Source of the DNA: Halopelagius inordinatus
GTDB lineage: Archaea > Halobacteriota > Halobacteria > Halobacteriales > Haloferacaceae
Length of the DNA: 64,000 nt
Reading direction: 5' to 3'
NCBI RefSeq assembly: GCF_900113245.1
Contig: NZ_FOOQ01000002.1
Location: 248,001 to 312,000 of the forward strand
A program made the position numbers and the translations under genes. This document shows, one piece after another, positions 45,893-49,697 of this stretch (position 1 is its first letter; each line of letters opens with the position of its first letter). The notes beneath the pieces were generated by a model, which searched no databases, had not been told where the DNA came from, and worked only from the letters and a program-made list of their open reading frames with translations.

Positions 45893-46330
45893 ATGCTCGT
45901 GAGAGACGTGATGTCGAAACCGGTCGTCACCGTCGCCGTCGACGCCGCCCTCGACGCGGCGGCAAAGCGCATGCTCGACGCGGACGTCGGGAGCGTCGTC
46001 GTCGAGTCCGACGGCGTTCCGGTCGGCATCCTCTCGGAGTCGGACGTGTTGACCGCGGGCGTCAACACCGGCCGACCCCTCTCCGGGGTGTCGGTCAGAG
46101 CGGCGATGTCGGCTCCGCTCACGCGAACGCGGCCGACGGCGACGGTTCGGTCGGCGGCCGAGACTATGCGTCGGGAGAACGCGAAGAAACTCCTCGTCGT
46201 CGACGGAACCGACCTCGTGGGCGTACTCACCCTCACGGACGTCGTCTGGAACCTCTCGGACCTCCGGCGCGAAGAACGACGGAAAGCCGACGCGCGGTTC
46301 GAGTGGCGCCACGACGAACGGTTCAAGTGA
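45893..46330 (+). CDS. CBS-domain-pair protein
   Basis: 145 residues, a tandem CBS module: first repeat about 5-55 (DVMSKPVVTV, GSVVVESDGVPVGILSESD), second about 68-122 (AMSAPLTRTRPTATV, AKKLLVVDGTDLVGVLTLTD), then a basic/aromatic tail of 20 residues. Nucleotide-sensing role expected from the family. Distinct from the pair at 17339; the two share only the fold. Upstream DNA at 45.85 kb is AT-rich (TAGTTTTATCATC) and should hold its promoter. Confidence 0.9.
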   Translation: MLVRDVMSKPVVTVAVDAALDAAAKRMLDADVGSVVVESDGVPVGILSESDVLTAGVNTGRPLSGVSVRAAMSAPLTRTRPTATVRSAAETMRRENAKKLLVVDGTDLVGVLTLTDVVWNLSDLRREERRKADARFEWRHDERFK

Positions 46331-46332
46331 CG

Positions 46333-46360
46333 ATATACGGGTAGGTCAGAAACCGTATAT
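46333..46360. repeat. Inverted repeat after the CBS gene
   Basis: ATATACGG (46333-46340) and CCGTATAT (46353-46360) form a perfect 8-base inverted repeat with a 12-base spacer, directly after the CBS stop and upstream of the HalOD1 promoter. It may be an operator for the HalOD1 gene or a structural 3' end of the CBS transcript. Confidence 0.5.
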
Positions 46361-46376
46361 TGCGGCGGTTACAGGG

Positions 46377-46384
46377 TTTATATT
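46377..46384 (+). promoter_or_regulatory. TATA element of the HalOD1 gene
   Basis: TTTATATT is centred about 27 bases before the ATG at 46408, the classical spacing for a leaderless haloarchaeal transcript. It supports the choice of that start over upstream in-frame codons. Confidence 0.6.
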
Positions 46385-46407
46385 CGGCCATCCCCTGCAG
46401 ACGTACC

Positions 46408-46677
46408 ATGCAAGAAGAACTACGCCTCCCCCCGACTCGGGGCTCTCTCGCCACCACTCTCGTCTCTCTCGTCGCCGACGTCTCCGGAACCGACGCCGTG
46501 GACCTCCCCCCCTTGGCGGCGGTGGTCGACCCCGACGCGCTCGGCGACCTGATCGACGGCCCGTCGGCGGTCGACGACCTCACCGTCTCGTTCGACTACG
46601 CGGGATTCCGCGTCCTCGTCCGCGGGAACGGACGAATCCACCTGACCGAGGCGGACGCGATTCCGCAACGGAACTGA
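46408..46677 (+). CDS. HalOD1 output-domain protein
   Basis: 89 residues, the length of a free-standing HalOD1 domain. The family pattern is visible: LVSLVADVSGTDAVDLPPLAAVVDPDALGDLI-like helix-turn segment (about 20-50) followed by VSFDYAGFRVLVRGNGRIHL (about 62-81). HalOD1 is a haloarchaeal domain found alone or at the end of response regulators; its molecular role is unknown. The transcript is predicted leaderless from the TATA at 46377; the inverted repeat at 46333 may control it. Confidence 0.8.
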   Translation: MQEELRLPPTRGSLATTLVSLVADVSGTDAVDLPPLAAVVDPDALGDLIDGPSAVDDLTVSFDYAGFRVLVRGNGRIHLTEADAIPQRN

Positions 46678-46868: not shown

Positions 46869-47957
46869 ATGTCACCGAATCTCTCCCGTCGCGACGTGCT
46901 CGGGGCGCTCGGAGCGGGGTCGCTCGTCGGCGCCGCGGGCTGTCTCGGAACGCTCGGCTTCGAGACGCAGTCCGCGTGGCGCGACCCGCCGTTGGTCGAG
47001 AACCGCCCTGACGCCGTCTACCGCCCCGCCCTCACCGAGGGGATGAAGACGTACGGGACGACGACTGCGGGCCCCTACGGCGTCGCGTTGACGTACTCGT
47101 ACCCGCACCGCTTTTGGACGCTCACCGGCACCGAACTGTCGAAAACCGTCGTGGGGGCGCAGGACTCGCTTCACCTCATGGTCTCGCTTTGGGACCGCGA
47201 GACGCGCACCGTTCTCCCCGTGGACTCCGGCGTCGGCATCGAGATAACGCGAGACGGCAGTCTCGTCACCGAGGAACTCGCCTACCCGATGCTGTCTCAA
47301 CAGATGGGTCTGCACTACGGGTCGAACTACGTCTTAGACGGCGAGGGCGAGTACGAGGCGACGGTGAGCGTCGGCGGCGTCTCCCTCGACCGGACGGGGT
47401 CGTTCGCCGGGCGTTTCGACTCGGCGGAGCGCGCCTCGCTTTCGTTTACGTTCGATACGGACGACCTGTCCGACGTTCCGCTGACCCGTCTCGACGACGC
47501 CGGCGAACGCGGGGCGGTCGAACCGATGGAGATGGAGTTCCCCGTCGGCGTCGCACCGGACGCCGAGAGCCTCCCGGGACGCCACCTCGGGCGGGCGACG
47601 AGCGGTGACGCCGTCTTGCACGCGTTCGCCATCGACGACGCCGACGCCGGACGGTTCGGAGACTCCGGCGGCACCTACCTCTACCTCTCGGCGCGCACGC
47701 CGTACAATCGAATCACGCTGCCGACGATGGGGGTGACCGCCGCGCTGACTCGCGACGGAGAGACGGCCTTCGAGGGGACGCTCTCTCGGACGCTCGACCC
47801 GGAACTCGGCTATCACTACGGGGCGAGCGTCGGCGAGGTTCGCGACGGCGACACGCTCGACGTGAGCGTGGACGTGCCGCCGCAGATTTCCCGCCACGAC
47901 GGCTACGAGACGGCGTTTCTCGACATGCCCCCGGTCACGTTCGACGCGGGGGAGTGA
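46869..47957 (+). CDS. Tat-type lipoprotein with two P19/Tp34-like domains
   Basis: 362 residues from the ATG at 46869. Twin-arginine signal (SRRDVLGALGAGSLVGAAGC) with a lipobox Cys, so it is exported folded and lipid-anchored on the outside. Two similar all-beta domains follow: domain 1 about residues 90-185 with PMLSQQMGLHYGSN (HYG at 149-151), domain 2 about 260-360 with RTLDPELGYHYGAS (HYG at 316-318). Both match the L-x-P-M...G-x-HYG-x-N signature of bacterial P19/Tp34, periplasmic copper/iron-binding proteins of iron uptake. I recall relatives as DUF7350. It heads an operon with a zinc-finger membrane protein and a polytopic membrane protein. Metal transport or protection is inferred. 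Confidence 0.75.
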   Translation: MSPNLSRRDVLGALGAGSLVGAAGCLGTLGFETQSAWRDPPLVENRPDAVYRPALTEGMKTYGTTTAGPYGVALTYSYPHRFWTLTGTELSKTVVGAQDSLHLMVSLWDRETRTVLPVDSGVGIEITRDGSLVTEELAYPMLSQQMGLHYGSNYVLDGEGEYEATVSVGGVSLDRTGSFAGRFDSAERASLSFTFDTDDLSDVPLTRLDDAGERGAVEPMEMEFPVGVAPDAESLPGRHLGRATSGDAVLHAFAIDDADAGRFGDSGGTYLYLSARTPYNRITLPTMGVTAALTRDGETAFEGTLSRTLDPELGYHYGASVGEVRDGDTLDVSVDVPPQISRHDGYETAFLDMPPVTFDAGE

Positions 47958-48007
47958 GAGCCGCCGACCCGACGGCCCGCCGCGGGCGACCCACGACCAC
48001 TCAAACC

Positions 48008-48289
48008 ATGACGGAGACGACGAACACGACGACGGACGCACCCGAGGAAGCGACCGGCACCGGCGAGTTCGCGTGCCGAACGTGCGGTCGGACGTTTCCG
48101 ACCGACAGACTTCACGTCCTCCACCGGGGGGTGCGCCACCCGGACGACCTGACGGCCGAAGAGCGCGAATCGTACCGCGAAGCGTACCTCGCCGAGGAAT
48201 CGGAGATTCGGTCGTTCCGAATCCGCGCGCTGGGTATGCTCGTCGTCCTCTACTTCGGCTTTCTCATCGTCTATGCTCTCGTCGCGTGA
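48008..48289 (+). CDS. Small C2H2 zinc-finger protein with C-terminal membrane anchor
   Basis: 93 residues from the ATG at 48008. A classical C-x2-C-x12-H-x4-H finger (C23, C26, H39, H44; FACRTCGRTFPTDRLHVLH), an acidic helix (HPDDLTAEERESYREAYLAEE), then a single transmembrane helix to the end (about 72-93). The finger faces the cytoplasm if the C-terminal helix inserts in the usual way. Function unknown. It sits between the P19/Tp34-like lipoprotein and a polytopic protein that overlaps it by 17 bases, so it is probably a subunit or regulator of the same membrane complex. Confidence 0.8.
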   Translation: MTETTNTTTDAPEEATGTGEFACRTCGRTFPTDRLHVLHRGVRHPDDLTAEERESYREAYLAEESEIRSFRIRALGMLVVLYFGFLIVYALVA

Positions 48290-49697
48290 CCGCCGCGTCG
48301 GCCGCGCCCTCGCGTGCTGTCTCGCCGTCGTCGGAACGCTCCTCCTCGCGGAGGGCGTCTCCGCCAGCAACGCCGCCGTCGGCCTGCAGGGGGCGTCCAG
48401 AGACGCGCTCTCGATTCCGCGGTGGCTCTACGTCGCCACCGGCGGCGCGACCGTCGGCGCGTCGGCCCTTCTGGCCAGTTTCGTCACGGACCGGCGGTTC
48501 GTCCGCGACATCCACCGGAGTCATCGCGATTTCGGCTTCGAGACGCTCTACCGCGGCGGCGTGGTCGCACTGCATCTCCTCGGACTCGCCCTGCTCGGAC
48601 TCGTCGTCTACAGCGGTCTGACCGGCCCGCAGGTTCCGACCGTCAACTTCGCCATCGTCCTCGTCTTCGCGGGCGTCCGGGCGGGACTGACGATGTTCAC
48701 CTACCTCGTCGGCGACGTCTGGTCGGCGCTGAACCCGTGGCGAACCGTCGCGACGCGCCTCCCGAACGGCTTTCTCGACTACCCGGCTCGGTTCGGACGG
48801 TGGCCCGCAGTCGCCGCGCTGCTCGGATTGGTCTGGATGGAGACGACGACGGGAATCACCAGTCGGCCGAGACTGCTCGCTCTCGTCGTCGTCGCCTACT
48901 CGGCGGTGACGCTCTCGGGCGCTCTCGCCGTCGGCGCGGAGACGTGGTTCCGAAACGTCGACCCGGTCTCGGCGTTCTTCCGGTTCTACGGCCGCGTCGC
49001 CCCGTTCTCGTGGACCGAGGGTGGCCTCCGCGCCCACCTCCCGGGGATGCGCCTCGTCGCGGGCGACGGGGAGAGTCGCGCGGAGGGGTTGGCCTCCGGA
49101 CTCGACGACGTGGCGATAGCCGTGGCCCTCGTCTGGGAACTCACCTACAGCGGATTCGTGACGACGGAGCAAGGCGCGCGGTTCGTCCGCGCCGCAGTCG
49201 GCGTCGGCCTCCCGCCTCTCGTCGTCTACGGCGGCCTGTTCGTCGTCGGATTCCTCGCGTTCTACGGGGCGTATCTGCTGGCGTCCCGCGTCGCAGTCGG
49301 CCGACTGCGGACGCACCGCACCGCCCGCGAACTCGCGGTGGGATTCGCGCCGCCGCTTCTCGCCATCGCGGCGGGCTATCACCTCGCGCACTACTTCGGC
49401 TTCTTCGTCTCTCTGTCCCCGTCGCTCGTGGCCGTCCTCGCGTCGCCGCTCTCGCCGCCGGCGAACCCGTTGGTCCTGACGCTCCCGGCGTGGTTCAGCG
49501 CGCTGGACATCGTGTTCGTCCTCGGGGGACACGTGCTCTCTATCTGGGTGGCGCACTCGGTGGCCTACCGCCTGTTCCCGAGTCGGATGCAGGCCATCCG
49601 GAGCCAACTTCCCTTCGTGTTCGTCATGGTGGGCTACACCGCGGCGAGTCTCTGGCTGATATCGCTGCCGACGACGCAGCCACCGTTCCTGCCGTGA
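48273..49697 (+). CDS. Polytopic membrane protein of unknown function
   Basis: 474 residues with about eleven hydrophobic segments. Not a transporter family I recognise. Notable intramembrane or interface residues: His-rich segment GYHLAHYFGFFVSL (about 370-383) and LGGHVLSIWVAHSVAYRLF near 425-443, plus NPWRTVATRL near 152 and WFRNVDPVSAFFRFYGRVAPF near 228-248. The paired histidines could bind heme or metal. It is translationally coupled to the zinc-finger gene and shares an operon with the P19/Tp34-like lipoprotein, occupying the place that an Ftr1-type permease has in bacterial systems. Permease or redox role is inferred, not shown. Confidence 0.7.
   Translation: MLSSRDRRVGRALACCLAVVGTLLLAEGVSASNAAVGLQGASRDALSIPRWLYVATGGATVGASALLASFVTDRRFVRDIHRSHRDFGFETLYRGGVVALHLLGLALLGLVVYSGLTGPQVPTVNFAIVLVFAGVRAGLTMFTYLVGDVWSALNPWRTVATRLPNGFLDYPARFGRWPAVAALLGLVWMETTTGITSRPRLLALVVVAYSAVTLSGALAVGAETWFRNVDPVSAFFRFYGRVAPFSWTEGGLRAHLPGMRLVAGDGESRAEGLASGLDDVAIAVALVWELTYSGFVTTEQGARFVRAAVGVGLPPLVVYGGLFVVGFLAFYGAYLLASRVAVGRLRTHRTARELAVGFAPPLLAIAAGYHLAHYFGFFVSLSPSLVAVLASPLSPPANPLVLTLPAWFSALDIVFVLGGHVLSIWVAHSVAYRLFPSRMQAIRSQLPFVFVMVGYTAASLWLISLPTTQPPFLP

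Follow-up and report, generated by a model that had tools for sequence, protein, structure and literature searches.

A P19-like lipoprotein and an FtrD-like membrane protein as a candidate copper-handling pair in haloarchaea

A P19-like lipoprotein encoded beside a polytopic membrane protein, with no FTR1 permease next to them, raises the question of which metal such a pair handles and how. The case considered here is a cluster from Halopelagius inordinatus, located in a stretch of 64,000 nucleotides that was analysed as a whole (hereafter the window). Three co-directional ORFs on the + strand encode the lipoprotein (46869–47957), a small zinc finger protein (48008–48289), and the polytopic protein (48273–49697); a gap of 50 bp separates the first two genes, and the last two overlap by 17 bp. 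The original prediction, which had described three overlapping or closely spaced genes, was correct in this respect, since the coordinates were the same and the motifs it quoted (GYHLAHYF and GGHVLSIWVAH) were present; its observation was confirmed as a whole, and its interpretation was partly supported. The ORFs are far from being chance ones, as the polytopic gene is kept in 167 and the lipoprotein gene in 208 of 242 genomes of the class. Genes for a CBS-domain protein (45893–46330) and a HalOD1 protein (46360–46677) lie just upstream in the window and are mostly not conserved with the cluster.

The lipoprotein comprises 362 aa with a Tat/lipobox signature (SRRDVLG...GAAGC) and is a clear member of the Pfam family DUF7350 (PF24041, E 2.9e-56, 189.4 bits against a cut-off of 27, in two stretches). 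Its Pfam match to Iron_transport, the P19 family (PF10634, E 0.0022), scored 18.6 bits and fell below the gathering score of 21. DUF7350 is named but uncharacterised, and a literature search found no paper on it and no described function or structure. The AlphaFold2 model (pLDDT 86.6) contains two domains at residues 57–202 and 246–362, which form one family by hhalign (E 1.2e-7) and hold one HYG motif each (149–151 and 316–318). Judged from its model, domain 1 adopts the P19/FtrA/Tp34 fold. HftA, FetP, Tp34, FtrA, and P19 structures matched it with Z 12.5–14 and rmsd 2.2–3.0 Å, the P19 family topping the list with a best match of Z 14.0 (2.4 Å over 136 residues), and the next folds scored lower, the nearest being the copper resistance protein CrdA of Helicobacter (Z 11). 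In addition, a lipoprotein profile built from 30 relatives found FtrA at E 3.4e-7. Of the two tandem P19/Tp34-type domains that had been predicted, the first was therefore borne out by the structure comparison, whereas the second is linked to P19 not directly but only as a diverged repeat of domain 1.

The metal ligands of P19 were mapped onto the lipoprotein with FtrA from a complete FtrABCD operon as the reference, using a P19 numbering taken partly from PDB entry titles (E44Q, M88I) and, for the histidines, from the positions that we take to be His42, His95, and His132. His42 corresponds to H102, Glu44 to M104, Met88 to M141, and His95 to H149, and His132 falls on a residue other than His in domain 1. 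Three of the five ligands are thus kept, H102, M141, and H149 being invariant in 30 sequences, and Glu44 and His132 are not. The change from Glu44 to Met would suit copper(I) better than iron. Most of the ligands are gone from domain 2, where a motif conserved without exception, RHDGYETAF, contains a His (H343) that is perhaps a stand-in for His132.

The polytopic protein (474 aa) was modelled by AlphaFold2 with pLDDT 86.1 and pTM 0.84 and shows eleven long helices, the number given at the outset. It had also been placed outside described families, and no Pfam, NCBIfam, or PDB entry matched it. Its family has no name in Pfam or NCBIfam, and those public records that were viewed label it only 'hypothetical protein'. 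A PDB fold search with the model gave no persuasive match (best E 0.013, with every Z below 5), and the fold may yet be a known one. No internal repeat was seen. Relatives occur in haloarchaea, actinobacteria, and proteobacteria, and an alignment of the archaeal profile with the bacterial one reached E 6.9e-52. In a set of 18 diverse members, every sequence has H373, H420, M452, and T456, and 16 have H428.

A likeness to FtrD surfaced when the neighbours of P19 systems were screened and was strengthened with profiles. The bacterial members matched FtrD with P 8.7e-5, and the combined family reached E 3.1e-7 against haloarchaeal Fer4_5 proteins and a hhalign probability of 96.7 against FtrD-like profiles (E 3–5e-10 over 337–343 columns); reversed-profile controls gave P 0.24–0.77 and seven unrelated membrane families gave P of at least 0.05. 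The first half carries the strongest signal; taken by itself, the C-terminal half is weak (P 5e-4), and archaeal sequences alone give a weak signal (probability 33–38%). Where FtrD has its two CX3CP cluster motifs, the alignment places the dipeptides NP (154–155) and DP (230–231) of the polytopic protein, and the only cysteines of the window protein are C15 and C16. By these profile comparisons, the family appears to be a distant, full-length relative of the FtrD-type membrane ferredoxins in which the CX3CP cluster motifs were lost. The earlier suggestion of a redox partner was accordingly a good guess, because the protein is related to FtrD.

Other candidate relatives of the polytopic protein, namely CopD, CtaG, CbtA, COX15, pmoC, DsbB, FTR1, and an unassigned membrane neighbour, showed no similarity to it. 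For the actinobacterial family, 'fenitrothion hydrolase' was considered as a name and dropped, as a literature search found no paper on it. Haloarchaea also carry stand-alone FtrD-like 4Fe-4S membrane proteins (L206–L211), which were rejected as partners of the lipoprotein, as no lipoprotein gene lies nearby in the six loci.

The association of the two proteins was followed across the class. Among the 242 genomes, all 167 with the polytopic gene also hold the lipoprotein, a count made by genome and uncorrected for kinship; the lipoprotein occurs by itself in 41 genomes, and both genes are missing from 34. Eighteen genomes with a close polytopic protein (at least 64%) all contain the matching lipoprotein type (at least 63%), the two genes being unlinked in four. 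In 52 dereplicated loci, the lipoprotein gene adjoins the polytopic gene in 24 (13 upstream and co-directional, 11 downstream and convergent), and the zinc finger gene adjoins it in 42 (26 upstream, 16 downstream). The proposed three-gene unit hence holds as an association of lipoprotein and polytopic protein, with adjacency in two arrangements, but not as one fixed unit, and the stable core across haloarchaea is the zinc-finger/polytopic pair.

The zinc finger protein (93 aa) combines a C-x2-C-x12-H-x5-H motif with a C-terminal hydrophobic segment, in agreement with the predicted C2H2 finger and C-terminal anchor, and resembles DUF7410 (PF24166, E 3.8e-6) at 27.1 bits, just below the cut-off of 27.5. 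Anchored in the membrane, it is likely to serve as an accessory or regulatory subunit.

The polytopic gene also occurs in other surroundings. In the same genome, a paralogous unit on contig C1 (locus L003, 10578–13761) consists of a DUF7350 lipoprotein and POLY-B without a zinc finger, with a NikR gene upstream (PF08753, E 6.5e-21). The Tat-exported DUF7405 adjoins the POLY-B branch (L145, L148, L150–L153, L156, L157) in an arrangement resembling EfeUOB; it matches Dyp_perox_C near the threshold (E 8.7e-4) and is present in 6 of the 52 loci, not by the window copy. In actinobacteria, a cupredoxin-like exported lipoprotein with an H-x-H motif and weak Pfam support is encoded directly upstream of the polytopic relative in each of the nine cases examined. 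The proteobacterial relatives are mostly found in catabolic clusters for nicotinate, tannase/feruloyl esterase, and tricarboxylate transport (L109, L111, L112, L113, L117, L175), which do not clearly fit any of copper, zinc/nickel, or iron.

As to the metal, neighbours of the copper type were found beside polytopic genes, including cytochrome oxidase, CopC, PCu(A)C, and copper hydrocarbon monooxygenase (CuMMO). One bacterial setting places CopC, oxidase subunit III, an oxidase assembly protein, and metal regulators beside a polytopic relative, and Mycobacterium CuMMO clusters (PMC8784404) contain another. The original prediction had cited iron uptake as the bacterial role of P19/Tp34 proteins; the genomic context favours copper rather than iron, and the chances of copper being the metal handled are put at about even. 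The portions searched of a copper-gene survey of Haloferax mediterranei (PMC9240420) do not name the cluster, and no link to it was found in those of a Halobacterium Cu/Ni proteome paper.

The best surviving alternative, though an unlikely one, is iron uptake, in which the lipoprotein would act as P19/FtrA for Fe2+, the polytopic protein would take the place of both FTR1 and FtrD, serving as a permease or accepting electrons, and the role of EfeB would fall to DUF7405. P19 proteins do serve iron uptake (PMC6083913, PMC11966278), and the homology to FtrD, the DyP-like DUF7405 beside POLY-B, and the label 'iron transporter' given to DUF7350 in public records agree with such a role; the Met in place of P19 Glu44, the copper genes in bacterial contexts, and the absence of iron-uptake neighbours from the clusters mapped argue against it. 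Moreover, the locus was rightly said to lack FTR1 (PF03239), and a gene hidden elsewhere was not found either: in a search with E. coli and B. subtilis as positive controls, FTR1 was undetected in the organism's own genome and had no match above the cut-off in the genomes of 40 relatives.

A P1B ATPase is encoded within 5.5 kb in 10 of the 52 dereplicated loci, in Haloferax directly downstream. The haloarchaeal P1B ATPases linked to polytopic genes are nearly all of the ZntA type (MDC[PA]SC, CPCAFVISTP, K...DxG; e.g., L014 11440–14061), the second ATPase in L030 being the sole exception, and these motifs point to Zn/Cd rather than Cu, against the copper reading. Together with CDF genes on plasmid versions and NikR at the paralogous unit, they favour Zn/Cd/Ni resistance or homeostasis, the pair moving zinc-group metals with a ZntA-type ATPase and a CDF transporter. 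However, such genes are absent by the oxidase-linked copies and in the bacterial relatives viewed, several of which have copper genes, and this alternative is considered rather improbable.

The oxidase-linked copies form a setting of their own. COX1 lies near the zinc-finger/polytopic pair in 16 of the 52 loci, with CtaA nearby in four, and, among the matches listed, the polytopic gene stands no more than 6.5 kb from a fused aa3-type COX1 in 28 of 53 genomes, none of these 28 copies adjoining a listed lipoprotein gene. The polytopic gene therefore has two main settings, one linked to the lipoprotein and one to COX1. A role of the polytopic and zinc finger proteins in heme-copper oxidase assembly, as a scaffold without metal transfer and with the lipoprotein as a passenger, would explain the nearness to COX1/COX2 and CtaA and the lack of the polytopic gene in four genomes without detectable COX1, but is very improbable, since the window copy and the 24 lipoprotein-linked loci sit mostly away from oxidase genes and the polytopic gene depends strictly on the lipoprotein at the genome level.

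The preferred reading, held at even odds, is that the lipoprotein and the polytopic protein form a two-partner system for handling metal outside the cytoplasm; the metal is most likely copper, which the pair probably handles at the cell membrane. The Tat-exported lipoprotein would capture it on the outer side of the membrane, in a site of the P19 type whose ligands have moved towards Met/His (H102, M104, M141, H149, and perhaps H343) and would hand it to, or take it from, the polytopic protein by physical contact, transfer from lipoprotein to membrane being the simplest scheme for direction and partners. As a presumed descendant of FtrD/CcoG-type membrane ferredoxins that lost its iron-sulfur clusters, the polytopic protein could not carry electrons in the same way, and its conserved His/Met set suggests that it binds metal itself; H373, H420, H428, and M452, located in its last three helices, may form a site that binds the metal or passes it on. 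Downstream, the system probably serves heme-copper oxidases and other cuproenzymes, either by supplying them with copper or by protecting them.

More tentatively, the polytopic protein may belong to an undescribed family, shared by archaea and bacteria, of redox relays or metal transporters in the membrane that are built on a cluster-less FtrD/CcoG scaffold and through which P19- or cupredoxin-type lipoproteins work without FTR1 to bring copper to heme-copper oxidases and CuMMOs. Copper delivery to the membrane's outer face for oxidases is poorly known in haloarchaea and several bacteria, and the polytopic family, found in about 70% of the sampled haloarchaeal genomes, thereby gains a likely origin, a partner lipoprotein, and a putative metal site. 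As far as could be searched, neither its FtrD origin nor its pairing with P19-like or cupredoxin-like lipoproteins has been described, and the pairing suggests that P19 proteins can use a membrane partner other than FTR1.

Compared with known systems, the cluster shares with CopC/CopD copper uptake the logic of an exported copper-binding protein and a polytopic partner, but the polytopic protein has no sequence similarity to CopD (PF05425, hhalign probability 0.3% with a rough profile of 15 haloarchaeal CopD proteins). Its full-length profile similarity to FtrD-like members relates it to the CcoG/NosR/NapH-type membrane ferredoxins (Fer4_5), a family to which CcoG presumably belongs; unlike them, it lacks both CX3CP motifs and the loop ferredoxin cysteines, and its final three helices contain conserved His and Met residues. 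CcoG itself acts as a cupric reductase in the assembly of oxidases (PMC8267372). The closest parallel is FtrABCD, in whose operons the 4Fe-4S protein FtrD is found with P19 (FtrA), a cupredoxin (FtrB), and FTR1 (FtrC). Bordetella needs all four components for Fe2+ use, and FtrA or FtrB loaded with Cu can oxidise Fe2+ (PMC11966278). Here, too, a P19-type exported protein is paired with an FtrD-related membrane protein, and the cupredoxin-like lipoprotein of the actinobacterial version recalls FtrB; in contrast to FtrABCD, FTR1 and the cluster cysteines of the FtrD-like partner are missing, and the lipoprotein differs from FtrA in its two-domain Tat type and in Met for Glu44. The cluster thus looks like FtrA joined to a cysteine-less FtrD without FTR1.
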